DNA of 39,166 nt from the NCBI GenBank assembly GCA_025454475.1, contig JALOOJ010000030.1, forward strand, positions 1 through 39,166, read 5' to 3'. Each line of letters begins with the position of its first letter. The stretch's first letter is position 1. Of the stretch, positions 2,228 through 34,718 are shown in pieces. Position numbers and translations under genes: made by a program. The notes beneath the pieces are model-generated. The model was not told where the DNA came from. It did not search any database and saw only the letters and a program-made list of their open reading frames with translations. The DNA comes from Anaerolineae bacterium (lineage in GTDB: Bacteria > Chloroflexota > Anaerolineae > B4-G1 > SLSP01).

Positions 2228-3418
2228 ATGACGACCCCAACGCAACACGTCCACAAAGAAGTTCGCGAGAGGCAGGCGCTGGACAGGGACATCGAGGAGA
2301 GCGATGGGACCATTGGGGCCGAAGAGGAACGGCTCTATGTGGCCAGCCAGTGGCAACTGATGTGGTGGAAGTTCCGCAGGCACAAGCTGGCGATGGCGAG
2401 TGGGGTGATCCTCATCATCTTCTACGTGGTGGCGATCTTCGCCGAGTTCGTGGCGCCCTATGACCCGGAGGCGTACTTTGCCTCGTTCAAGCTGGCACCG
2501 CCGACCCCAGTGCGCATCTTCGACACGGAAGGCAAACTGCGCCCGCCCTTCATCTACCGACGAGATCGCTATCGCGATGAGGAAACGTTGCGTTATTCCT
2601 ACATTGACGACATCAGTGTCCGGTATCCGGTAAAGCTGTTCGTGCAGGCAACCCCCTACAAGCTCTGGGGGCTCTTTGAAACCGACGTGCATCTCTTTGG
2701 CATCGAGGCTGCTCGTGAGGAACAGGGGGTCTTTCTGACGGGTGCCGATCGGTTGGGCCGCGATCTGTTCTCCCGTCTCTGTTACGGGGCCCGTATCTCG
2801 CTCTCTATTGGACTGATCGGTGTCCTTATGAGTCTGGTGTTGGGTATCATCCTTGGGGGGGTCTCGGGATATTACGGGGGGCGTATCGACACGATTATCC
2901 AGCGGGTCATCGAGTTCGTACGGACAATACCGAATATCCCGCTCTGGATGGCGCTCAGTGCGGCGCTGCCGCCGGACTGGCCTGTGATTCGGCTCTACTT
3001 CGGCATCACGATCATCCTGTCGCTCATTGGGTGGACGGGGATGGCGCGGGTAGTGCGCGGGCGGTTCCTGGCACTTCGCAACGAGGATTTCGTGCTGGCG
3101 GCACGACTTGGTGGGTCCAGCGAGATCCGTATCATTCTGCGACACATGGTGCCCTCATTCTTGAGCTACATCATCGCCAGCCTGACAATCGCCATCCCTG
3201 GCACGATCCTCGGCGAGACGGGCCTGAGTTTCATCGGGCTGGGCATGCGCGCGCCGGCGATTAGTTGGGGGGTGCTGCTGCAGGAGGCGAATAACATACG
3301 TTCACTGGCGCAGGCGCCGTGGGTCTTCGCCCCCGCCTTTACCGTCGTGCTAACCGTCTTCGCCTTCAACTTCCTGGGCGATGGCCTGCGCGATGCTGCG
3401 GATCCCTACGCGCGTTAG
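2228..3418 (+). CDS. ABC transporter permease, DppC/OppC type
   Basis: A 396-residue permease, the expected partner of the preceding DppB-type protein. About 45 cytoplasmic N-terminal residues precede the first membrane helix (KLAMASGVILIIFYVVAIF). A long extracellular insertion follows (about residues 75-175) and then the permease core with GTDxxGRD-like wording (TGADRLGRDLFSRL). The EAA loop reads DFVLAARLGGSS. The C-terminus LGDGLRDAADPYAR is the standard end of DppC proteins (LGDGLRDxLDPR). The insertion between helix 1 and the core is longer than in E. coli DppC, a pattern common in sugar-type family-5 systems of deep-branching bacteria (family knowledge, not proof). The gene follows the upstream permease by 3 bases, and the ATPase gene starts about 50 bases downstream. 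Confidence 0.92.
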   Translation: MTTPTQHVHKEVRERQALDRDIEESDGTIGAEEERLYVASQWQLMWWKFRRHKLAMASGVILIIFYVVAIFAEFVAPYDPEAYFASFKLAPPTPVRIFDTEGKLRPPFIYRRDRYRDEETLRYSYIDDISVRYPVKLFVQATPYKLWGLFETDVHLFGIEAAREEQGVFLTGADRLGRDLFSRLCYGARISLSIGLIGVLMSLVLGIILGGVSGYYGGRIDTIIQRVIEFVRTIPNIPLWMALSAALPPDWPVIRLYFGITIILSLIGWTGMARVVRGRFLALRNEDFVLAARLGGSSEIRIILRHMVPSFLSYIIASLTIAIPGTILGETGLSFIGLGMRAPAISWGVLLQEANNIRSLAQAPWVFAPAFTVVLTVFAFNFLGDGLRDAADPYAR

Positions 3419-3471
3419 TGGTGCAGAGCGGACACGGATCCGTACGCACAATAGCCATAGGAGCATGCCAA

Positions 3472-4500
3472 GTGGACAACAATGACCTGCTTGTGGAAGT
3501 GAAGAATCTGCAGACTTATTTCTACCTCGATGAGGGCACAGTCCGAGCAGTGGATGGTGCGGACTTCAACATCAGGCGCGGTGAGATCCTGGGCGTGGTT
3601 GGGGAGAGCGGCTGCGGGAAAAGTGTCACTGCGCGGTCCATCATCCGCATTGTGGCGAAGCCGGGCCGGATTGTGGGGGGGCAGATCCTATATCACCGGC
3701 GCCAGAACGGCAACGGACAGGGAGAGGTGATCGATCTCACGCAACTCTCGGCACAAGGCGACGTGATGCGCAATATCCGAGGCGCGGAGATCTCGATGGT
3801 GTTTCAGGAGCCGATGACCTCACTCAGCCCTGTGCACACGATCGGCAACCAGATCATCGAGGCCATCACCTTGCACCAACGGGTGGATCCACAAGAGGCG
3901 CGTGCGAAGGCTATCGAGATGCTGGACTTTGTGGGGATGCCGCTGCCCGATCGAACGATCGAGCAGTACTCCTACGAGCTGAGCGGTGGGATGCGTCAGC
4001 GCGCAATGATCGCGATGGCGCTTTCATGTCATCCGAGCCTGCTAATCGCTGACGAGCCCACCACGGCTTTGGATGTGACGACAGAGGCTCAGATCCTGAC
4101 GCTGATGCGCCGGCTGCAGCGCGAGTTGGGCATGGCGATTATGTACATCACACACAACCTGGGTGTGGTGGCGCAGATGACAGAGAATGTGGTGGTGATG
4201 TATATGGGCAAGGTCGTGGAGCAGGCCGATGTGGACACGATCTTCCACAATTCGCTGCATCCTTACACGCAGGCGCTGCTTCACTCCATCCCGCACATGG
4301 GTACCAAGAGCATAGAGCGGCGACGACTGGCCTCCATCAAGGGGATGGTTCCGGACCCGTATGCGCTTCCCAGGGGCTGCGCCTTCCATCCGCGATGTAG
4401 TGACATGAGGCCCGGCATATGTGATGAGATTGAGCCGCAGATGATCGAGGTGGCGCCGGGGCACAGAGTACGCTGCGATCGTGCGGCCGGGCTGGCTTAG
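3472..4500 (+). CDS. ABC transporter ATP-binding protein, DppD/OppD type (copy 1)
   Basis: This 342-residue cytoplasmic ATPase energises the permease pair upstream. I place the start at GTG 3472, preceded by an AGGAG SD; a longer frame back to 3319 runs into the preceding permease gene and lacks family similarity. The Walker A motif GESGCGKS is at residues 44-51, the Q-loop is [10 protein letters not shown], the signature is [12 protein letters not shown], and Walker B is [12 protein letters not shown]. The C-terminal [15 protein letters not shown] is the cysteine-containing oligopeptide/dipeptide C-terminal domain of DppD and DppF, which in some members binds an Fe-S cluster. Such transporters normally use a D-type plus an F-type ATPase. 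No F-type gene follows here; the only other ATPase is a second D-type at 12595. Confidence 0.92.
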
Positions 4501-7064: not shown

Positions 7065-9659
7065 ATGACCCATTCCTACCTTCGCTACGGCTTGCAGGAC
7101 GGCTACGTCCACAATTGGTTGGTCCTGGGGCCGCGGAGCGTCCCTACTGGGACGACTGAACAGGGGATATTCCTCGATGCCGCCGCTGATCCGGTCGTCG
7201 GGAGCAAAGCGGCCGAGCCCGCCACCCTCGCCGCCGAGACCGTGACATTCGACGACTTCGAGGGTAACTGGCGCTATGTCCGCTGTCTAGAGGATCACTT
7301 TGTGGACCTGTCGGGGCTCACACGGCGCGGTCATTACCTCACTGCGTGGGCCTATGCAGAACTTGACGTCCCCGCGGTATGCACGGCGACCGGCGTGTTG
7401 ACGGTAGTATGGCCGCGCGGTGCCGGGGTGGCCCATGTATGGGTTAACCGGCAGCACGTCCATGCGGCAGTGGACTGTCGGGCGGCAGCGGACGTGGGCC
7501 CGGAGGGCGGCAGGGCGCCAGCCGACACGACTCGGCTGAGCGAGAGCTTTAGCATGAATCTGGGAGAGGGGTGCAACACCGTTCTGGTTCGCTTTGAGGT
7601 GTCGGTGGTGGACCCGTGTCCCTATGCCGTCGCGCTATATGTTGGTGGGGCAGCGGCAACTGTGTGCCTGCCCACGTCGATCGAGCCTGTGGAGCGCCGG
7701 CAGCTGATGGAGCGGGTCTTCGATGCCGCCTATGCTGATCGCTACGTTTACGCCCGTGAGGATGAGATCGAGCTCCGCTGGCCCTCGAAGGATGATCCCG
7801 ATGGTCCCCTTGAGGAGTCGGCTAGCCTGACTGCGCGGCTGCGCGCGCGTTCGGGCAGGATCTACGCAGAGGCCACCCGGACTGGGAAGGCGGGCGATTA
7901 TGCACGCCTGGGGCATGCCTACCAACACCCGGGTGGCGCCTTTGATCTCGTGCTGATGCCGCGACCGCAGGAGTACTACCAGGGCGGTATGCGCATCACC
8001 AGGGAGATGCCGCTCTGGGGCCTGGGGAACAATCGCTATTCCACGGTCCCGACTGGCACGTTTGCGGAAAGGCACCGGGAGACGCTTATCAGCGCCGCGC
8101 GGCGTGAAGCCAATGTCTACTCCGAGGTCGCCAAGATGGCGGTTGGTTGGTGGTCGCGGCTCGATCTGGCAGCTATGTTGAGGACCCTTGACGCGCTCAA
8201 GACCTCGCCGGAGCGTGACTACCGTGAGTTGCTCGGTTTTTTGGGGATGGCCATGCGCTTTGGCGACGCGCCCGAGTTCCCCGCGACATTGAGGGAGGCG
8301 ATAGAGACGACGGCGATGGAAGTGACACTCTCTGAGGAGTGGTTCTCCATAGAATCGGACGTGCTAGTCAGGCCCGAGGGGTTACTGGTCTCTGCATGTG
8401 CGATCCTCGCCGGTCAGGTCCATCCGGAGCATGTCTGGGCTGCTTCCGGTAAAACAGGGCAATGGTATCGTGACCAGGGCGAGAGGTTGGCATTAGCCTG
8501 GGTACACGAATGCGCCACCAAGGGGCTGTGGGCATGGCAATCGGACACGGCGTCTGCGGACGTGATCGTTGTGTTGGCGCACCTTATCGATCTCGCCGAC
8601 ACAGAGGCGATCTGGGAGACCGCCTCTGTGCTGCTGGACAAGCTGCTGTTTCAGCTCTCTGTGAACTCCTTTCAGGGCGTCTTCGGGTCAAGTCGTGGGA
8701 CGACTTTGACGCCGCACCTGTTCGGCGGATACCTGGAAGCGACGTCAGGCATCGCCAAGCTCATGTGGGGAATGGGTGTCTGTAACCACAACTTCCGTGC
8801 CGCCGTGAGCCTTGCCTGTCTCGAGGACTATCAGTATCCGGTCATGCTTCAGGCAATTGCTGCTGACCTGCCACTGGACGGGATGTGGAGTCGCGAACGT
8901 CACGTGGCGGGCGATGTTGTGGGGGCAGTCAGCACGGCGACCTACAAGACCCCTGACGGGATGCTGTGCTCCGCCCAGGACTATCGTCCCGGCCAACCTG
9001 GCGCCGAGGAGCACATCTGGCAGGCGACACTGGGCCCCGGCGCGACGGTCTTTGTAACACATCCGGCGTGCAGCAGCCTGGACGACGCACGCAAGCCTAA
9101 CTTCTGGCGAGGCAATGGTGTGCTTCCACGCGTGGCGCAATGGCGCGATGCGCTGATTGCGCTCTACGCGCTGCCCGATGACGATTGGATGGGGTTCACG
9201 CACGCTTACTTCCCCACGTACGCGTTCAACGAGACTGTGCTTCGCGAGGGCTGGGCCTTCGCTCGTAAGGGCGATGGGTATCTGGCTCTGACGGCAGATA
9301 TGCCACTGACGCTAGTTCGCAGGGGCGACGCCGCCTATCGCGAACTGCGTGCCTACGGCCGACACGTCGTCTGGCTCTGCCAGATGGGGCGCGCTGCCGA
9401 GGATGGCGATTTCGTTACATTCCAGGAGAAAGTGCTGGCGCTGCCGGCTATCTCGGACGGTCTCAGCGTTCGCTGGACGACGTTGCGCGGCGACACGCTC
9501 TCCTTCGACTGGACAAGGCCGTTTTCTAAAAACGGTGAGCCCCTGGCGATGACCGTGGAGAACCTGATGGAGAACCCGTACTGTGTCGCCACATTCCCTG
9601 CCGAGAGGATGGACATCCGCTATGGTGATGTGGTGATGAGGCTGGATTTCACTAGTTAG
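7065..9659 (+). CDS. Large uncharacterised protein (864 residues) of the sugar locus
   Basis: I do not recognise a characterised family. The ATG at 7065 follows an AAAGGA SD. No signal peptide or membrane helix is seen, so it is probably cytoplasmic. The first 200 residues (with YVHNWLVLGP near the start) look beta-rich, like an accessory sandwich domain. Residues about 330-620 are helical with many Trp and aromatic residues, compatible with an alpha-toroid. The C-terminal 250 residues (TYKTPDGMLCSAQDYRPG, then EEHIWQATLGPGATVF) look beta-rich. This toroid-plus-sandwich layout is reminiscent of polysaccharide lyases and family-specific glycosidases, but that is only an architectural impression. 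Its place just upstream of an oligogalacturonate lyase gene makes a carbohydrate role plausible. Confidence 0.75.
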   Translation: MTHSYLRYGLQDGYVHNWLVLGPRSVPTGTTEQGIFLDAAADPVVGSKAAEPATLAAETVTFDDFEGNWRYVRCLEDHFVDLSGLTRRGHYLTAWAYAELDVPAVCTATGVLTVVWPRGAGVAHVWVNRQHVHAAVDCRAAADVGPEGGRAPADTTRLSESFSMNLGEGCNTVLVRFEVSVVDPCPYAVALYVGGAAATVCLPTSIEPVERRQLMERVFDAAYADRYVYAREDEIELRWPSKDDPDGPLEESASLTARLRARSGRIYAEATRTGKAGDYARLGHAYQHPGGAFDLVLMPRPQEYYQGGMRITREMPLWGLGNNRYSTVPTGTFAERHRETLISAARREANVYSEVAKMAVGWWSRLDLAAMLRTLDALKTSPERDYRELLGFLGMAMRFGDAPEFPATLREAIETTAMEVTLSEEWFSIESDVLVRPEGLLVSACAILAGQVHPEHVWAASGKTGQWYRDQGERLALAWVHECATKGLWAWQSDTASADVIVVLAHLIDLADTEAIWETASVLLDKLLFQLSVNSFQGVFGSSRGTTLTPHLFGGYLEATSGIAKLMWGMGVCNHNFRAAVSLACLEDYQYPVMLQAIAADLPLDGMWSRERHVAGDVVGAVSTATYKTPDGMLCSAQDYRPGQPGAEEHIWQATLGPGATVFVTHPACSSLDDARKPNFWRGNGVLPRVAQWRDALIALYALPDDDWMGFTHAYFPTYAFNETVLREGWAFARKGDGYLALTADMPLTLVRRGDAAYRELRAYGRHVVWLCQMGRAAEDGDFVTFQEKVLALPAISDGLSVRWTTLRGDTLSFDWTRPFSKNGEPLAMTVENLMENPYCVATFPAERMDIRYGDVVMRLDFTS

Positions 9660-15631: not shown

Positions 15632-15965
15632 CGTAATCCTCCCACCTTCCTACCTATTGAGATTACCAATATGCTCTCTGGTTCGGGGTTCTCCCCGGAC
15701 CGGAGCTGGTGTTTCTGGGTGAGTATCCCACCCGTTACGAGGTATTGACGTAGGTCAGTGCACAGAAGTTCCAGAGCGTTCGGGTCTTGACTGGGAAGCT
15801 GTGATGTCTTGACGCTTCGCAAGGAGGCGGCTGTGCAGGTTTCCGAGAGATCCTTGTACAGGTAGGTAGGCAAGGTACAATCCGAGCTGGGTCGCTCGTT
15901 GGGCGTAGATCGATTTCCGCGCTGTTCCGTTTGGTGCAGTGCGTCGGAAAGCTACTGGAGGGATC
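15632..15965. other. Intergenic region with divergent leaders
   Basis: This 334-base spacer separates the divergent SIMPL and MscS-ParB genes. It holds the SIMPL SD at its left end, a short imperfect hairpin (GTTCGGGGTTCTCCCCGGAC near 15682), a likely plus-strand promoter (15854-15881), and the GGAGGG SD of the channel gene at its right end. Frames open on the minus strand here have unlike codon use and no recognisable product, so I see no gene. Confidence 0.5.
15854..15881 (+). promoter_or_regulatory. Probable sigma70-type promoter for the MscS-ParB gene
   Basis: TTGTAC (15854-15859) and TACAAT (15876-15881) are 16 bases apart. The -10 matches 5 of 6 consensus bases; the -35 is weaker. Transcription from here would give a leader of about 75 bases. 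Confidence 0.45.
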
Positions 15966-17195
15966 ATGCACGTCAAACGGAACTTACTGCTGCTTCTGGG
16001 CTGGAGTCTGGCCGCGGGGCTTTTTGGTGTTCTCAATGCTCGCGGTATAGGTCTTGCGACGATGCCCAGTGGCACGACGCTCACCATGGGCTTGCTCGTG
16101 TTTTTCGCGATCCTCGCCGGATACCAGGTAGGCGTACTGACTATCAAGGGGAGTGTCCACCTTAACCGCGGAGCTCCTGGTGAGGTCACGATGCTGTCCG
16201 GCGTCCTGCGCCTTGTAGCTGGCATCGGCGTCATTGCAGTACTGCTCTCGCTGTTCGGTCAGTTGCAGACTGTCGGGACAGCGTTGGGGGCGTTCAGCGG
16301 CCTTCTCCTGGGCTGGTCCCTCCAGGCGCCGGTGAGCGGCATGGCTGCGTGGATCATGATCTCGCTCAAGCGTCCGTTCCGCGTCGGGGACCGCATCCAA
16401 TTGCCCTCGCTGGGGTTGGTGGGTGATGTGGTCGCCCTGGGACCGATGTACACCGAGCTCAACCAGGTCGGGGGCGCGGTAGGCAGCGAGGAGGCTGTGG
16501 GCCGGCCAATCCTCATCCCCAATGCTATGCTGTTCAGCAATGTGGTGATCAACTACACGGCCCGCCAGGACGCGGCTTTCATCCTCGACGAGGTGGTCAT
16601 CCGCATCACGTACGATACGAACTGGGACGTGGCTGAGGGTATCCTGCTCTCCGCCGCGCGTGAGGTCACCGCCGACATCATCCGCCAGACGGGCCAAGAG
16701 CCCTATGTGCGTGCGGATATGTACGACTATGGGATCTACATGCGGTTGCGCTACACGACCAGCGCCACGGATAGGCCGCGGATCACCTACCAGATCATCA
16801 AGCTCATCTTTCAGGGCTTCCAGGACGATGCGCAGGTGGACTTCGCCATTCCCTACATCTACTCGTTCCGCAAGGGCGTGCAGGCGTCGGCGCGGTTCGA
16901 CGAAGCCGAGCACACCAAGTCGACGATCGACCTGCCGCTCAGTGATATCATCTTTGATGAGGAGGGCAGGCTGTTTCTGAAGGCCAACGAGGAGAAGATC
17001 GATGAGCTGGCTGAGGGCATAAAGGTGGATGGGCTTATCCAGCCCGTGGTCGTCACGTTGACTTCTACTGGTGCCTATCGCGTGGTGGCGGGACACATGC
17101 GTGTCGCGGCATGCAAGCGCCTCGGCTGGCGCACAGTGCCGGCGATCGTGCGGGAATCGGCTGGAGACATCGGGTTGCCTCCGGCCTCTGAGTAG
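15966..17195 (+). CDS. MscS-type mechanosensitive channel fused to a ParB-like domain
   Basis: A 409-residue protein; ATG 15966 follows GGAGGGATC. Three hydrophobic segments (about residues 5-27, 40-60 and 76-97) lead into a Gly/Ala-rich pore-like helix (GTALGAFSGLLLGWSLQAPVSG) and then the MscS beta domain with KRPFRVGDRIQLPSLGLVGDV and PILIPNAMLFSNVVINYT. This order is typical of MscS. From about residue 319 the chain becomes a ParB/sulfiredoxin-like domain: IDLPLSDIIFD, EEKIDELAEGIKVDGLIQPVVV, YRVVAGHMRVAACKRLGW, TVPAIVRE. The box corresponding to GERRxxA, the CTP-binding motif of ParB, reads GHMRVAA (residues 376-382), so a key Glu and Arg are changed. The fusion places a ParB-like domain at the cytoplasmic face of a channel. 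The role is unknown. Confidence 0.88.
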   Translation: MHVKRNLLLLLGWSLAAGLFGVLNARGIGLATMPSGTTLTMGLLVFFAILAGYQVGVLTIKGSVHLNRGAPGEVTMLSGVLRLVAGIGVIAVLLSLFGQLQTVGTALGAFSGLLLGWSLQAPVSGMAAWIMISLKRPFRVGDRIQLPSLGLVGDVVALGPMYTELNQVGGAVGSEEAVGRPILIPNAMLFSNVVINYTARQDAAFILDEVVIRITYDTNWDVAEGILLSAAREVTADIIRQTGQEPYVRADMYDYGIYMRLRYTTSATDRPRITYQIIKLIFQGFQDDAQVDFAIPYIYSFRKGVQASARFDEAEHTKSTIDLPLSDIIFDEEGRLFLKANEEKIDELAEGIKVDGLIQPVVVTLTSTGAYRVVAGHMRVAACKRLGWRTVPAIVRESAGDIGLPPASE

Positions 17196-19846: not shown

Positions 19847-22312
19847 TCAGGCGGGGCGCTGCTGGAGGAACGCCGCCACGTCGGCGAAGTCGGTGGTGTG
19901 GCAGCTCTCGGGCAGCGAGCGGATGATCTGTTGGCCGTAGCGCTTGTGAAGAACCCGTCCATCGAGCAGGGCGATGACACCCCGGTCGGTCTCCGAGCGG
20001 ATCAGCCGCCCGGCTCCCTGCCGTAGGTTGAGAATGGCGGATCCGAGCTGTAACTCGTAGAAAGGGTTGCCGCCGCGGGCACGGATCTGTGCCTCCTGAC
20101 GCTGGATCACGGGGTCGTCGTACGGGACGAACGGGATCTTGTCGAGGATCACCAGCGCTAGCGCATCGCCGGGGATGTCCAGTCCCTCCCAGAATCCGCG
20201 GGTCGCGAAGAGGATCGCGTTGCCGTCCGCCTGAAACCGCGCGACGAGCTCCGGCTGGGCATAGTCGCCCTGGAGATAGCAGGGATAGCGTGTGCGGAGG
20301 ATGGGTGCCAGCGCGTCATAGAGCTGCAGCATGCGTTGACGACTGGTGCACAGTACGAGTGCCCGCCCGCGGCTCATCTCCAGCAGTCGCCTGACCTCCT
20401 CGGTAAGCTGTTGTACGTAGCCGTCTGAGAAGGACTGCGACTGTTCGTCGTACACCGGTGTCAGAGCGCGCGGTGTGTAGAGTACCATCTGTCGTTGGTA
20501 GTCGAAGGGTCCCCGAATCGCCTGAGAGATAACGTGTGCGGCCCCCTCTCCGTCTGCAGATGGGAGCCCGATCTGGCGCTTGAACCAACCCAGGTCGTTG
20601 TTGACGCTGAGTGTGGCGCTGGTGCAAACAACGCGGGGCCATACCTCGAAGAGCATCCGCCGCAGAGGGTCAGCCACCTCCAATGGGCGGTAGAGCGCCT
20701 GGTAGGTCTCTTCGGCGCCCGGCATCGTTTCCTCAGCGACCTCGCAGAGACGGATATGGGTCTCCGGCTCCGGGAGGGCCAAGGCCCGGACCGTTGTTGC
20801 CAGCTCCTCAACTTGCATCACGGCGGCGTCACGGTCGCCATCGTCCAGCTGTGGGGCGTTGATCAGCGCGCGCTGGACGTGGTTTAGGATGTCCCAGAGG
20901 GCCAGCCCGGCCTGAACCTGACCCTCGAGGGCCCAGCGAGGAGGGCGCCCGTTCGTCCTGGCTCGTCCGGGACGCTGCTGCTCCACGGCGCTGAAGAACT
21001 CGTCGTAGCCCGTGCGCGCCTCGACGAGGAGATCGGCGTCTGATACGCCACCGCGCACGGTAGGGTTATTCATCAAGCTCCAGAAAAGGTCGTGGCTCAG
21101 CGCCATCGTCAGCGCCTCGACAGCGTAGCGCGGCAGCTGGTGCGCCTCGTCGACGATGAGCATCGGGCGAACGGGAAGAATGTGGTTCTCGGCGAGCAAG
21201 GCATTGTAGCAGAGGAGGGCGTGGTTGGTCACTACCAAGTCGGCGCCCAAAGCTTCGCGTTTGGCGGCCTCGTGGAAGCATCCATCAAAACGCGCGCAGC
21301 GGTGCCCCTGGCAGTCGTGTCCCCCGACTGTGATACGTGCCGCAAGCTCAGGTGGCAGGCGCATCATCTCCACGTCGCCCGAGGGCACGGCCTCCAGACC
21401 CTTTCGCACGAGGCTGAGCATAGCGGGCTGGTTCGGGTTCCCCACCTGCTGGTGCAGCCGCTCCAATCGCAGCGCACAGATGTAGTTACTGCGCCCCTTG
21501 AGTAGCGCAGCCTTCATCGGATGGGGTGCAAGCTGCTGCAGTCTAGGGATGTCTTTCTCCCAGAGCTGGTTCATCAGCCCCTTGTTTGAGGTGCTAACCA
21601 CGGCCTGCGCGCCGGACCACAGAACGGGGATCAGGTAGGCAAAGGACTTACCGATGCCGGTCCCCGCCTCGATGACGGCGTGGCTGCGTCCCTGGAGCGC
21701 GTCGCGGACGAGGTGCGCCATCTGCGTTTGGCCGGCTCGGGCGCGATAGCGATCACCGAGCAGCGCGGCGAGCGGACCCCCTGGGGCAAAGACGCCCTCC
21801 AGCGGCGGGCAGACGATGGGCCGCATCGTCGTGTCGTCTTTCGCATCGCCGTTCGGCGACCGGCGCTCCTTCGCGGCATAGACGGCTGCGGGTTCCTTGA
21901 CATAGTCCGGCGACTCGGGTCCTGCCTGCCGCGCATTGGGAGCACTCTTCGTGAGGACTCGTCCGCCCACCACGACCGCTGGCTCGGCACCCACCGGCAT
22001 CTTGGAATGCTCCGCGGGCCGCGGCTGGGGCGCAAGGGCAACTTGCATTGCCTCGAGCAGCGGCTTGGCCCGGGGCTCGCCGAGCTCGTGGGCGCGGGTG
22101 AGCGCCTGGGCGGCATCGTTCCAGCGATGACGCTGCCGATAACAAAGTCCCAGTTGGTAGTGGGCGTTGGCGTGGTCGGGATCGAGGCTCAGGATCTCGC
22201 GATAGGCCGCGATGGCCCCGTCCAGGTTGCCTTGCAGCAAGAGCTTGAACGCACGGCGCTCCTGGGCCCGGACAGCGATCTCGGTTACGTTCGCGTTCAG
22301 CCAACCCGACAT
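19847..22312 (-). CDS. DinG/XPD-type ATP-dependent helicase with N-terminal TPR segment
   Basis: An 821-residue protein. Residues about 14-80 form two tetratricopeptide-like repeats (LLLQGNLDGAIAAYREILSLDPDHANAHYQLGLCY), followed by a low-complexity linker to about residue 165. The superfamily-2 helicase core then has Walker A EAGTGIGKS (K222), four cysteines in YICALR, GHDCQGHRC and DGCF that fit the Fe-S cluster of XPD/DinG helicases, and VDEAHQ (D388). Late motifs include VLCTSRQRMLQLYDAL, ATRGFWEGLDIPG and RQGAGRLIRSETDRG. DinG-type enzymes unwind damaged DNA, R-loops or forked structures 5' to 3'. The TPR extension is not part of E. coli DinG and suggests a protein partner. It is read divergently from the peptidase gene, with overlapping promoters. 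Confidence 0.92.
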   Translation of the reverse strand: MSGWLNANVTEIAVRAQERRAFKLLLQGNLDGAIAAYREILSLDPDHANAHYQLGLCYRQRHRWNDAAQALTRAHELGEPRAKPLLEAMQVALAPQPRPAEHSKMPVGAEPAVVVGGRVLTKSAPNARQAGPESPDYVKEPAAVYAAKERRSPNGDAKDDTTMRPIVCPPLEGVFAPGGPLAALLGDRYRARAGQTQMAHLVRDALQGRSHAVIEAGTGIGKSFAYLIPVLWSGAQAVVSTSNKGLMNQLWEKDIPRLQQLAPHPMKAALLKGRSNYICALRLERLHQQVGNPNQPAMLSLVRKGLEAVPSGDVEMMRLPPELAARITVGGHDCQGHRCARFDGCFHEAAKREALGADLVVTNHALLCYNALLAENHILPVRPMLIVDEAHQLPRYAVEALTMALSHDLFWSLMNNPTVRGGVSDADLLVEARTGYDEFFSAVEQQRPGRARTNGRPPRWALEGQVQAGLALWDILNHVQRALINAPQLDDGDRDAAVMQVEELATTVRALALPEPETHIRLCEVAEETMPGAEETYQALYRPLEVADPLRRMLFEVWPRVVCTSATLSVNNDLGWFKRQIGLPSADGEGAAHVISQAIRGPFDYQRQMVLYTPRALTPVYDEQSQSFSDGYVQQLTEEVRRLLEMSRGRALVLCTSRQRMLQLYDALAPILRTRYPCYLQGDYAQPELVARFQADGNAILFATRGFWEGLDIPGDALALVILDKIPFVPYDDPVIQRQEAQIRARGGNPFYELQLGSAILNLRQGAGRLIRSETDRGVIALLDGRVLHKRYGQQIIRSLPESCHTTDFADVAAFLQQRPA

Positions 22313-22342
22313 AGCGGTTTCCTCCCACGCTCGGACGCCCCC

Positions 22343-22371
22343 ATTATATAGTGCAAATGTTCTATTGGCAA
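22343..22371 (-). promoter_or_regulatory. Promoter of the TPR-DinG gene (minus strand)
   Basis: On the minus strand TTGCCA (22371-22366) is 17 bases from a perfect TATAAT (22348-22343), 31 bases before the ATG. The -35 box overlaps that of the divergent peptidase promoter. Confidence 0.75.
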
Positions 22372-22394
22372 GCCACGCGAGCAGAGGATATACT
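22365..22394 (+). promoter_or_regulatory. Promoter of the prolyl oligopeptidase gene
   Basis: TTGGCA (22365-22370) and TATACT (22389-22394) are 18 bases apart, each 5 of 6 to consensus. Transcription would begin near 22401, past the in-frame codons at 22351. This supports ATG 22441 as the start of the peptidase. Confidence 0.7.
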
Positions 22395-22440
22395 CCGTAT
22401 TGCTCTCTGTCACGAAACGCTCGAGAATTGGAGGCATCGG

Positions 22441-24489
22441 ATGGCTGGACTTGCGTATCCCTCGACCCGTAGAAGCGATCATGTCGACGACTACCATGGC
22501 ACGACGGTGGCCGACCCGTATCGCTGGCTGGAGGATCTGAACGCGCCCGAGACGGCGGATTGGATCGCGGCGCAGAACGGGCTCACCTTCGACTTCCTGA
22601 GGCAAATCGCCGAGCGGCAGAAGATCCGGGAACGCCTGATTGCTTTGTGGGATTACCCAAAGTTGGGCGCGCCCTTCAGATATGGGCAGCAGTATTTCCA
22701 GTTCCGCAACACGGGACTGCAAAACCAGGATGTTCTGTATGCAATGGAGACGCCGACGGATGAGGGCAGAGTGTTGATCGACCCCAATACGCTCTCCACG
22801 GATGGGACGGTGGCTCTGACGGACCTGGCGATCAGCTGGGACGCCCGGTGGGTCGCCTACGCCACCAGCGCCAGTGGTTCGGATTGGAGGTCCTGGCATG
22901 TCCGAAGCGTAGAAACGGGTGAGGACCTTCGGGATACCCTCGAGTGGAGCAAGTTCGCGGGGACTGCTTGGCTTCCGGACAACAGCGGGTTTTACTATGG
23001 CCGCTATGACGCGCCCGAGGAGGGCACGGAGTATGCTGGGGCAAACTACAATCAGCAGGTCTATTGCCATCGTCTGGGCACCGATCAGGCCGAGGACGAA
23101 CTGGTCTATCACCGGCCCGACCAACCCACTTGGGGATTCAGCCCCAGAGTGACCGATGATGGCGCGTATCTGGTGCTGCACGTGTCGGAAGGGACCGACC
23201 GACGAAATCGCATCTTCTACAGGGCTCTGGACGGTGCCGTGTTTGTGGAGCTCATTGGAACGTTGGAGGCGAGGTTTGACTTCGTGGGCAACACCGGGAC
23301 AGTATTCTACTTCCATACTGATCTCGAGGCCCCCAAGGGCAGAGTCATTGCCATCGATGTAGCGCGATCCGAACCCGAGGCTTGGCGCACTCTGATTGCT
23401 GAAGGAGACGATACACTAGAGTATGTGACGATGGTCCACGACGAGTTCGTACTCATCGCACTCCACGATGCCTATCACCAGATTCGGCGCCATGCGCTCG
23501 ACGGCACAGTCCTGGAGGATATTCCTTTGCCCACGTTGGGATCGGTGAGTGCTCTGACCGGCCGGCGTGAGGACGCCGAGCTGTTTTTCGGCTTCAGTTC
23601 CTTCACGACCCCGCCGACCGCCTACCGCTACGACTTCGGCCGAGGCACCTGCACCGTTATCTACGAACCCCAAGTTCAGTTCAACTCTCAGCCCTATGTG
23701 ACCGAGCAGGTGCTCGCCACCAGCAAGGACGGGACGCGGGTGCCGCTATTCCTCGTGCACCGCAAGGACTGGGTAAAGGACGGTCAGAATCCTACCTTGC
23801 TCTACGGCTATGGGGGATTCAACATCCCTACTACCCCGAGCTTCCAGGTGGCGCGTCTGGTCTGGCTGGAGATGGGAGGCGTGCTCGCTGTTTCCAATCT
23901 TCGCGGCGGCGGCGAGTATGGCGAGGCATGGCACAGGGCGGGCACGGTGCACCAGAAGCAGAATGTCTTCGACGACTTCATCGGTTGTGCGGAGTACCTG
24001 ATCGCTTCAGGGGTGACATCCACCCGGAAACTTGCCATCGAAGGGCGGTCCAACGGTGGGCTGCTCGTGGGCGCGTGCCTGACGCAGCGCCCCGACCTAT
24101 TCGGCGCCGCGCTTCCCGCCGTTGGCGTTATGGACATGCTGCGTTTTCACAAGTTCACCATTGGCTGGGCGTGGGTCAGCGACTACGGCTCCGCCGAGGA
24201 TCCGGACGAGTTCCAGACGCTCTATGCCTATTCACCGGTCCACAATACACGTCCTGCCATCTACCCGCCGACGCTGATCCTGACCGGTGACCACGACGAC
24301 CGCGTGATGCCTGCGCACTCCTACAAGTTCGCCGCAGCCATGCAGGTTGCCCAGCGGGGTGAGGCTCCGATCCTGATTCGGATCCAGACCAACACGGGGC
24401 ACGGTGTTGGAAAGCCCACGCAACTACTCATCGAGGAGCGGGCGGATATGTGGGCATTTCTGGTGTGCGCGCTCAGAATGGAAGAATAG
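22441..24489 (+). CDS. Prolyl oligopeptidase family serine peptidase (S9A)
   Basis: This 682-residue protein has the normal length of the family. ATG 22441 is chosen because TTGGAGG lies just upstream and the promoter would miss any earlier start. The N-terminus YPSTRRSDHVDDYHGTTVADPYRWLED is the standard S9A opening. Residues about 75-410 form the seven-bladed propeller, and the alpha/beta hydrolase domain follows. The catalytic triad is Ser537 (GRSNGG), Asp619 (GDHDDRV) and His654 (NTGHG). Such enzymes cut short peptides after proline. No signal peptide is present, so it probably acts in the cytoplasm, perhaps on imported peptides. The gene is single and ends in an inverted repeat shared with the convergent kinase gene. 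Confidence 0.96.
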   Translation: MAGLAYPSTRRSDHVDDYHGTTVADPYRWLEDLNAPETADWIAAQNGLTFDFLRQIAERQKIRERLIALWDYPKLGAPFRYGQQYFQFRNTGLQNQDVLYAMETPTDEGRVLIDPNTLSTDGTVALTDLAISWDARWVAYATSASGSDWRSWHVRSVETGEDLRDTLEWSKFAGTAWLPDNSGFYYGRYDAPEEGTEYAGANYNQQVYCHRLGTDQAEDELVYHRPDQPTWGFSPRVTDDGAYLVLHVSEGTDRRNRIFYRALDGAVFVELIGTLEARFDFVGNTGTVFYFHTDLEAPKGRVIAIDVARSEPEAWRTLIAEGDDTLEYVTMVHDEFVLIALHDAYHQIRRHALDGTVLEDIPLPTLGSVSALTGRREDAELFFGFSSFTTPPTAYRYDFGRGTCTVIYEPQVQFNSQPYVTEQVLATSKDGTRVPLFLVHRKDWVKDGQNPTLLYGYGGFNIPTTPSFQVARLVWLEMGGVLAVSNLRGGGEYGEAWHRAGTVHQKQNVFDDFIGCAEYLIASGVTSTRKLAIEGRSNGGLLVGACLTQRPDLFGAALPAVGVMDMLRFHKFTIGWAWVSDYGSAEDPDEFQTLYAYSPVHNTRPAIYPPTLILTGDHDDRVMPAHSYKFAAAMQVAQRGEAPILIRIQTNTGHGVGKPTQLLIEERADMWAFLVCALRMEE

Positions 24490-24588: not shown

Positions 24589-25936
24589 AGTGCAGTTTGT
24601 ACACCGAGCCGCCGATGAACTCGCGCACGTGAGAGGTGGCAGGGATCGCGGATTCGTCCTCGATGGGAATCAGGGCCTGAAGCAAGCGATGTACTCGTTC
24701 GGCGCGCAGATAGGCGTCCATTCGATTGGGGTCGTCCCTGTACTCCCGCACCCACTGCGCGAAGTTTGCGAAGAGCCGTGCGCGCATTACAGGTAGCTCG
24801 TAAGGCGTGGCGCTGTTCACCACGTAGTCCGCTGTGTTGACGTAGGGGATGATGTGGCGCAGCTCGCTGCTGCGCACGTAGTGCCAGTGCTCCAGCGTCT
24901 GGCGTGGATCGTAGGCGCGCTCACGGGCATCGCGGACCATCCGTCGCATCAGCCGCAGGTCGGTGAACCGGATGTACTGGTTGTCTGGCCCCTTCATCTG
25001 CAGCAGGGTCTCAATGTAGAGCTTGAACTTCTGCGCGTCGGGGATCGCAGCTGTCATGCCCTCATAGAGGCCATGGAGGCTGTCGATCAGGATCAACTGG
25101 TCGTCGTGCACCTGCATCGGGGTTACGTCCAACTGGCGCTTCCCCGTCTTGAAGTCGTAGCGGGGCAACATGACCTCTTCCCCCGCGATCAGGCGCTGGA
25201 GGTGCTCGTTGATCAAGGCCAGATCCAGGGCCTGTGGGGTCTCGAAATCATAGTCACCATACTCATCCCTGGGGTGCATCTCCAGGTCGAAGAAGTAGTT
25301 GTCGACGTTGAGCGCTACCAGGCTCAGCCCTGCCGTCTTCAGACGTTCCTCGAGCTTGGCCGTCGTGGTTGTCTTGCACGAGGACGACGGGCCGGCGATG
25401 ATGGCGACTCGCAAAGCCTCACGCCGGTGGAGGATGCCGGCGAGCGCATCATCCACATCCTTTTCGTAGGCCTCGTCGGACTCGCGGACGATTTCGGCGA
25501 ACTCCCCTTTCGCGATGCGCTCGTTGAGCCTGAACACGTTGTGGACGCTGTGATCGACCGACCAGTTGAGCACTTCCCACAGCTTCCGGTAGGGGATGTT
25601 CTCCGGATCGCGCTGTGTCCGCACCTCTGTCCTGCGCTCACGCCGCATCGCGCGTTCCTGCCGGTAGAGGATGTAGGCTTTGGCAGTCCGTGCGTGGCCC
25701 TGCTCGATTAACACCTTCTCCACGACGTCCTGGATCTCTTCTACCGTGGGGACCTTATCCCCGGTGCACGTCTTCCGCAGGATTCCGACCACTGCATCGG
25801 CAAGGCGCTCTGCTGTCTGTCGATCGCGTCCGCCGACGGCGACTGCCGCGCGGTAGATGGCGTTGGCGATCCGCTCACGGTTGAAGGGTACGACAGCACC
25901 GGTGCGCTTCACAACGTGCGTTAGACACTGGGACAT
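24587..25936 (-). CDS. ATP-cone domain fused to a uridine-kinase/phosphoribulokinase-like domain
   Basis: A 449-residue protein; the ATG follows a GGAGG SD (GGAGGATAACG). Residues about 6-95 are an ATP-cone (VVKRTGAVVPFNRERIANAIYRAA, PTVEEIQDVVEKVLIEQGHARTAKAYILYR), the nucleotide-sensing domain best known from ribonucleotide reductase and NrdR. From about residue 178 a P-loop kinase of the uridine kinase/PRK type follows: VAIIAGPSSSCKTTTTAKL with K188, VDNYFFD, YDFETPQALDL, LPRYDFKTGKR, LILIDSLHGL. The P-loop has Cys where Gly usually precedes the Lys, a change seen in this kinase subgroup. It likely phosphorylates a nucleoside or sugar phosphate under nucleotide control. It is divergent from lexA. 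The substrate is unproven. Confidence 0.88.
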   Translation of the reverse strand: MSQCLTHVVKRTGAVVPFNRERIANAIYRAAVAVGGRDRQTAERLADAVVGILRKTCTGDKVPTVEEIQDVVEKVLIEQGHARTAKAYILYRQERAMRRERRTEVRTQRDPENIPYRKLWEVLNWSVDHSVHNVFRLNERIAKGEFAEIVRESDEAYEKDVDDALAGILHRREALRVAIIAGPSSSCKTTTTAKLEERLKTAGLSLVALNVDNYFFDLEMHPRDEYGDYDFETPQALDLALINEHLQRLIAGEEVMLPRYDFKTGKRQLDVTPMQVHDDQLILIDSLHGLYEGMTAAIPDAQKFKLYIETLLQMKGPDNQYIRFTDLRLMRRMVRDARERAYDPRQTLEHWHYVRSSELRHIIPYVNTADYVVNSATPYELPVMRARLFANFAQWVREYRDDPNRMDAYLRAERVHRLLQALIPIEDESAIPATSHVREFIGGSVYKLH

Positions 25937-33785: not shown

Positions 33786-34718
33786 ATGCACTGGATGGAC
33801 CTGGTTGCACGTGATCCGGTGCCCTGGTTACTTGACCCCGGCAATCCTTCCGCGCGTCTTCAGACGCTGAAGCACATCTACCGAAAGCCTGCAGAGCAGC
33901 TCTTCGGGGAGCAGCAGGCGCTGCTTGCCTGGGAGCCTGTGGCGCGGCTTCGGCGCCATTGGGACCCGATGCACTTTTGGGGCCGCGCCGAATCCCCCTA
34001 CTACGGCGGTCCGGTCGGCAACTTCGGCACGCTCTACCTGTTGACACAGATGGGTGTGGCGCGATTCCCGGAGGTTGAGCCGGTCTGCGAGAACCTGTTG
34101 GCCAACGGCAGGCGTGAGGATGGCCACTATGCCCCCCAAGGGGGCGGTGCGGCCCCTTGGCACTGTTATGCCGGGATGGCGCTGCATATCCTCACGCACT
34201 TCGGCTATGGCGACGACCCCCGTGTGGTGTCCGCGTGGCAGGCGCTGGCTGCCACGATGCGGGAGGACCCCGACCACTTGGGCTGTGTGATGGCCGACAG
34301 GGCATGCAGGGCGGGGGCGGTCAAGGCTCTGGCGGCGCTTATCCACTGCAATACGGAATCGCCGGGTGGTGTCGATACGGCGACGATGGGCCTGCTCTGT
34401 GAGTATTTGCTCGCCCACGCGTACGACATCGCGGGAGAGGATGCCGACTGGGCTAAGCCGCGCTTCCCGCGCTTCTATGACACCGACCTGATTGAGCTCT
34501 GCCACGTGCTGGCTCACACCGCATACCGAACGCATCCGACCAGCCAGCGGTTGTTGCGGCACATGCTCGACTTGCAGGATGCCGATGGGCGCTGGCACAA
34601 GGAGAAGGTGACGCCGGCACTAGCCGAGGAACGCATCTTCCAACCCAGTCGCTGGCTCACGTTTGAGGCAGTCCATGCCCTCGTGCTGACCTATGGAGAC
34701 GCGCTCTATGCGCCCTGA
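33786..34718 (+). CDS. Prenyltransferase/squalene-cyclase-like alpha-toroid repeat protein
   Basis: A 310-residue protein made of paired helices, with short motifs such as QDADGRWHKEK, NGRREDGHYAPQ and GNFGTLYLLTQMG that resemble the QW/prenyltransferase repeat of alpha-alpha toroid proteins. No DxDD cyclase motif is seen, so it need not be a terpene cyclase; many relatives are unassigned. The ATG has only a weak SD (GAGAAGG). Its stop overlaps the start of the NUDIX gene by 11 bases, which implies coupled translation. The function is open. Confidence 0.7.
   Translation: MHWMDLVARDPVPWLLDPGNPSARLQTLKHIYRKPAEQLFGEQQALLAWEPVARLRRHWDPMHFWGRAESPYYGGPVGNFGTLYLLTQMGVARFPEVEPVCENLLANGRREDGHYAPQGGGAAPWHCYAGMALHILTHFGYGDDPRVVSAWQALAATMREDPDHLGCVMADRACRAGAVKALAALIHCNTESPGGVDTATMGLLCEYLLAHAYDIAGEDADWAKPRFPRFYDTDLIELCHVLAHTAYRTHPTSQRLLRHMLDLQDADGRWHKEKVTPALAEERIFQPSRWLTFEAVHALVLTYGDALYAP

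Follow-up and report, generated by a model that had tools for sequence, protein, structure and literature searches.

Our analysis has shown that a gene of this Anaerolineae bacterium joins an MscS-type channel to a C-terminal domain of the ParB/Srx fold, and that the MscS-ParB fusion is real and conserved. The gene occupies positions 15966 to 17195 on the + strand of the window, the whole stretch of 39,166 nucleotides that was analysed, and encodes 409 amino acids with no internal stop, as delimited by Pfam, AlphaFold2 and orthologues. Direct reading of the sequence places a Shine-Dalgarno-like GGAGGG (15957 to 15962, + strand) upstream of the ATG at 15966. The C-terminal domain has the predicted ParB/Srx fold and keeps the GxxR motif and the C-motif loop, and the DNA-binding and dimerisation parts known from ParB proteins have been lost.

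The channel half opens with three membrane helices ahead of the pore helix (residues 1-97, positions 15966 to 16256). AlphaFold2 places them at residues 2-26, 36-64 and 70-97, and 19-residue Kyte-Doolittle windows exceed 1.6 for all three. The kinked pore helix TM3a/TM3b (residues 100-113 and 115-135, positions 16263 to 16370), identified by alignment and AlphaFold2, carries the signature GWSLQAPVSG. It leads into the MscS beta domain (PF00924; residues 123-198, positions 16332 to 16559), matched by the Pfam model MS_channel_2nd with an E of 3.1e-9 and 37.2 bits against a curated cut-off of 20.2. A confident cytoplasmic alpha-beta domain and the start of the barrel strand follow (residues 201-296, positions 16566 to 16853), as judged from alignment with unfused MscS proteins, AlphaFold2 and Foldseek. 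The beta-domain match, and the pore-lining TM3 followed by beta and alpha-beta domains in the model, place the protein in the MscS superfamily. By sequence (phmmer), the channel half matched solved MscS and YnaI structures with E down to 5.6e-10, and Foldseek matched the full model to MscS, YnaI and MscK (YnaI-MscS chimera 9h2v, E 1.2e-14; MscS 4hwa, E 2.7e-13). These results bear out the sequence-only reading, which had described a single frame with a Shine-Dalgarno start, three membrane segments, and an MscS pore and beta domain.

When the pore helices of the fused clade were compared (window 16263-16370 and the loci L031 and L032 described below), the tryptophan of GWSLQAPVSG was aligned by hand with L109 of E. 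coli MscS. The pore helix of this clade is one residue longer than that of unfused Chloroflexota relatives. The tryptophan and the extra residue could alter conductance or gating. A second MscS gene of the source genome carries no additional Pfam domain. Elsewhere in the window, an ATP-cone domain is fused to a phosphoribulokinase/uridine-kinase-family domain (24590 to 25936, - strand), and open frames of 864, 339 and 310 amino acids (7065 to 9659, 22297 to 23316 and 33786 to 34718) had no Pfam match at E 0.001.

A linker of about 20 residues (297-317, positions 16854 to 16916), which has a pLDDT below 50 and is probably disordered, connects the cage to the ParB domain. The ParB/Srx-fold domain itself (residues 319-400, positions 16920 to 17165) was delimited by Pfam and by sequence and structure matches, and its residues 320-396 reach a pLDDT of about 90 or more. 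ParB_N (PF02195) matched residues 341-398 with an E of 2.6e-14 and 53.5 bits against a curated cut-off of 26.3; membership of the ParB/Srx fold thus has both a match above the cut-off and the same fold behind it. The ParB-type segment proposed from the letters is therefore present, and the C-terminal 91 residues searched alone, for which the lack of any ParB match had been a conceivable outcome, gave ParB_N at E 1.8e-15. The Pfam match spans model positions 23-80 of 95, and the Box III (ENxxR) segment falls beyond the protein end. Modelled by itself, the ParB part has a pLDDT of 87 and matches Noc, ParB-CTP, plant sulfiredoxin (Srx), the serine kinase SerK, SbnI-ADP and PadC at Z 10-12, with Z about 12 for Noc, ParB and Srx. 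Searched by sequence, the tail found Noc and ParB structures, the closest being Noc (7nfu, E 1.1e-11). The full-length AlphaFold2 model, built from an alignment of 37 sequences, has a mean pLDDT of 80 and a pTM of 0.47, a value at which the relative placement of the domains carries no information. By homology with MscS, the C-terminus would be expected to be cytoplasmic.

Orthologues were found in two further genomes. The protein of a sister species of the same genus (G003, locus L002, on a contig deposited as Chloroflexi bacterium UR.bin234) is 86% identical to that of the source genome (G000) over 403 residues. Its setting is also that of the source genome, flanked by a tRNA-Gln(TTG) and a radical-SAM gene at one end and by a SIMPL-domain gene at the other. 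The second orthologue, from another family of the same class (G233, locus L031), shares 51% identity over residues 31-398 and scores 54.7 bits for ParB_N and 30.8 bits for MS_channel. At this locus, a CorA-type transporter gene (397 to 1416, - strand) follows the fusion gene on the same strand with about 66 bases between them. A gene with a nucleoside-diphosphate-kinase (NDK) domain (2765 to 3691, + strand) lies divergently upstream; an NDK gene adjoining a putative nucleotide sensor is suggestive, and is a feature of this one locus, not shared with the source genome.

It is hardly conceivable that an assembly or frameshift artefact joined two genes here. The genomes concerned are draft assemblies in hundreds of contigs, but the same fusion and gene order recur in the sister species and the same fusion recurs in a different family; with two independent orthologues carrying it, the artefact was rejected. 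Homologues that always end near residue 315, which the sequence-only reading had weighed against itself, were not the pattern seen: the intact orthologues keep the ParB domain, and the unfused MscS relatives examined have no ParB part after the cage barrel.

The fusion is rare and confined in our searches to a few Chloroflexota: roughly 400 class genomes gave three intact copies. It was found in 2 of 48 genomes of the order, and the class (396 genomes drawn) yielded the three intact copies and one remnant. When the G233 protein was used as the query, 395 class genomes gave no further members. The remnant is a decayed channel copy in the genome G329 (locus L032, 1495 to 2277, + strand), with an in-frame TGA and a deletion joining residue 231 to about 295, and with no recognisable ParB part. 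A search for a ParB remnant near this copy gave as its best match 20 residues at E 0.01, 6.6 kb away, probably by chance. All members of the order of G329 were already among the genomes drawn earlier, so the class is well covered. No new fusion was found in a sample of 400 genomes of the phylum Chloroflexota, plasmid records held no match covering 80% of the fusion protein, and IMG/VR viral contigs gave no match to it. In a scan of GTDB contigs with peptide patterns, the sister-species copy was the only one among the full-length matches; since these patterns reach close relatives only (G233 was missed), independent fusions in other phyla are possible.

In the channel tree, the three fusions and the G329 remnant form one clade with support of 100/100, and the remnant stands beside G233 (98/96). 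The three fused ParB domains also cluster (94/81), although with 82 columns this grouping is not decisive. Taken together, the two groupings fit one fusion event, and the simplest reading of the trees would be that the fusion arose once and was inherited patchily, and that one copy is decaying.

To compare the domain with ParB of Caulobacter, the Caulobacter positions were placed on the alignment by hand, residue by residue, from what we take to be its sequence. CTP binding by this ParB needs R60, S74, G79, R103, R104, N136 and R139, each of which on substitution leaves binding weakened or abolished, and hydrolysis needs Q58, E102 and E135 (PMC8367383). Among the CTP-binding residues, the source genome and the sister species keep two of the seven (G79 and R104) and G233 keeps three (S74, G79 and R104); R60, R103, N136 and R139 are changed or absent in all three fusions, and S74 is lost in the two close relatives. 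The catalytic residues are all missing from the source genome and the sister species, and only the Q58 position is retained in G233. The C-motif loop (Box I; residues 356-360, positions 17031 to 17045; motif definition in PMC8367383), whose glycine aligns with G79, is kept as GLIQP in the two close relatives and as GLLQP in G233. The P-motif GxxR of Box II (residues 376-379, positions 17091 to 17102; PMC12704722, PMC11790492) is kept as GHMR, GHLR and GQLR in the source genome, the sister species and G233, respectively, and by alignment R379 of GHMR is the equivalent of Caulobacter ParB R104 and KorB R117. The motifs quoted in the sequence-only reading are thus in place (GLIQPVVV from residue 356, GHMR at 376-379), and GHMR does stand where the GERR box has been lost. 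That reading had suggested that CTP binding may be altered or lost; with only two of seven binding residues kept (three in the distant member), the domain is unlikely to bind CTP in the canonical way.

The fusion protein has no helix-turn-helix, dimerisation domain, Box III or QPR arm and ends 11 residues past the ParB_N match, before Box III would be reached. Together with the missing catalytic residues and the depleted CTP-binding set, this separates the domain from canonical ParB/Noc CTPase DNA clamps, and hydrolysis and DNA clamping are unlikely on these grounds. In the broad sense, GxxR in Box II and the C-motif loop make it a candidate nucleotide-binding ParB-CTPase fold. In KorB, R117 is essential for CTP binding and the Box III asparagine is not (PMC11790492); since the corresponding asparagine is required in Caulobacter, its role varies by protein. 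According to a 2025 survey (PMC12704722), non-canonical ParB-like proteins often have no Box III and can bind ATP, CTP or GTP, and substitution of the GxxR arginine abolished NTP binding in the 11 binders found. Of the 28 ParB-like proteins purified for the survey, 17 showed no NTP binding in the conditions used for the assay, so NTP binding by the fused domain cannot be assumed. The GxxR arginine is kept in all three fusions, which leaves some nucleotide binding by the fused domain possible.

Selective constraint was estimated by the Nei-Gojobori method between the source genome and the sister species. The dN/dS of the whole gene was 0.066. Within the channel it came to 0.026 in the pore and beta domain and 0.031 in the alpha-beta domain, and the ParB part had a value of 0.116 (dN 0.14, dS 1.21); these absolute values are rough because synonymous sites are near saturation. 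Both halves of the fusion are under purifying selection. By these estimates the ParB part is clearly so, and the constraint on it is clearly weaker than that on the channel. All three fusions agree at 28 of 82 positions of the ParB part versus 134 of 215 of the channel.

Based on these observations, our best guess, to which we give slightly less than an even chance, is that the protein is a channel of the MscS superfamily and that a small cytoplasmic ligand-sensing domain would modulate its gating or desensitisation. In this model, single-domain ParB folds of sulfiredoxin size would hang on flexible linkers below the cytoplasmic cage, seven per channel if the protein is a heptamer like MscS. 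The channel would be heptameric and tension-gated, as MscS is, and the ParB domain would bind, but not hydrolyse, an NTP or some related nucleotide. Binding may then alter how the ParB domains associate, among themselves or with the portals of the cage, and this change could shift the tension threshold of the channel or its inactivation. The fusion, its conservation, the confident domain fold, the nucleotide-bound structural matches and the kept GxxR motif speak for a sensor, and by analogy so does the established theme of ligand-binding additions to MscS channels (PMC4560390). Against it stand the loss of most canonical CTP-contact residues, the lower conservation of the ParB part, and a symmetry mismatch, as the fold forms dimers in ParB and the channel would have seven-fold symmetry. 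Gating could depend on nucleotide, as the sequence-only reading had proposed, and we infer support for that idea from this evidence.

A ParB fold that binds no nucleotide might instead serve as a platform for protein binding or self-association. It could gather channels into clusters, form a cap over the cage portals, or bring in a partner, for example ParA or a metabolic enzyme. We consider this unlikely, yet worth weighing: most CTP-contact and nearly all catalytic residues are lost, constraint on the ParB part is clearly present, and the fold can act as a scaffold without switching (PMC12704722). However, the GxxR arginine and the GLIQP/GLLQP loop, key to non-canonical nucleotide binding, are kept in all three fusions, and no neighbour gene common to the source genome and G233 hints at a partner. 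It is improbable that the domain is a passenger of little or no function, retained as harmless. Such a passenger would suit a fusion that is rare and patchy (three intact copies, about 400 class genomes), a related copy that is decaying in G329, and a dN/dS in the ParB part about four times that of the channel core. That dN/dS is nevertheless far below neutral, with dS of 1.2 near saturation, and two lineages with channels of just 57% identity have both kept the domain intact and in frame.

Noc proteins link DNA to the membrane, and a domain that tethers DNA or the segregation machinery in this manner would be in keeping with its closest solved relatives by sequence, which are Noc proteins (7nfu, E 1e-11). 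We regard this as very improbable. With the helix-turn-helix, dimerisation domain, Box III and QPR arm absent and the chain ending directly behind the core fold, DNA tethering is unlikely. A separate ParB_N protein, the only other one in the genome, has an open frame of 287 amino acids and matches the model almost completely (positions 4-95 of 95). The DNA-binding module at the membrane envisaged in the sequence-only reading is not supported, as the ParB/Srx core alone remains.

Among known systems, MscS, YnaI and MscK of E. coli resemble the fusion in the pore helix, beta domain and alpha-beta cytoplasmic domain; unlike them, it has the pore signature GWSLQAPVSG and a C-terminal ParB domain. 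It also has one membrane helix more than E. coli MscS. Comparable in logic are the bacterial cyclic-nucleotide-gated (bCNG) channels, MscS-type channels whose C-terminal nucleotide sensor is a cNMP-binding domain; in the fusion, the candidate sensor is a ParB/Srx fold instead. MscS-superfamily subfamilies are defined by N- and C-terminal additions that include ligand-binding domains (PMC4560390, where the bCNG work is cited). On the ParB side, fusions of the ParB-CTPase fold described in PMC12704722 similarly join ParB_N (PF02195) with GxxR and without Box III to an unrelated partner domain. PadC of Myxococcus and KorB have ParB/Srx domains of the same fold (6ryk, Z 10.2; 8qa8, Z 10.6). PadC is a CTP-binding protein that interacts with ParA (PMC7333895). 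It lacks CTPase activity, and its catalytic positions are altered (PMC8367383), as they are in the fused domain. KorB is a DNA clamp, and unlike the fused domain neither KorB nor PadC forms part of a membrane channel. Sulfiredoxin likewise consists of one minimal domain, alike in size and fold, and its chain too ends shortly past the final strand (6ky4, Z 12.0). Its catalytic cysteine lies in a GCHR motif; in the fusions this cysteine is replaced by histidine in the source genome and sister species and by glutamine in G233, which sets the domain apart from sulfiredoxin.

MscS channels with added domains and ParB-fold fusions in the broad sense were known already, and their joining is a new variant. 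The combination was not found in the literature searched, although an unnoticed entry in a domain-architecture database may exist, and in the main text of the ParB-fold survey (PMC12704722) the words channel and mechanosensitive are absent. One further paper that came up, about filament-forming proteins of cyanobacteria, was judged to be unrelated. In this compact two-domain protein, nucleotide control of a mechanosensitive channel is testable by one truncation and one point mutation. Tentatively, and with rather less confidence than in a ligand-sensing domain as such, we suggest a nucleotide-gated or nucleotide-tuned mechanosensitive channel that would read a cellular nucleotide through its ParB/Srx fold, linking osmotic release to nucleotide status. 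If true, it would be the first case known to us of an ion channel that senses through a ParB fold. The ParB fold has recently been recognised as a widespread nucleotide-binding module with many fusion partners, and MscS channels that have acquired regulatory domains are known; their natural joining would extend the uses of the ParB fold to ion channels.
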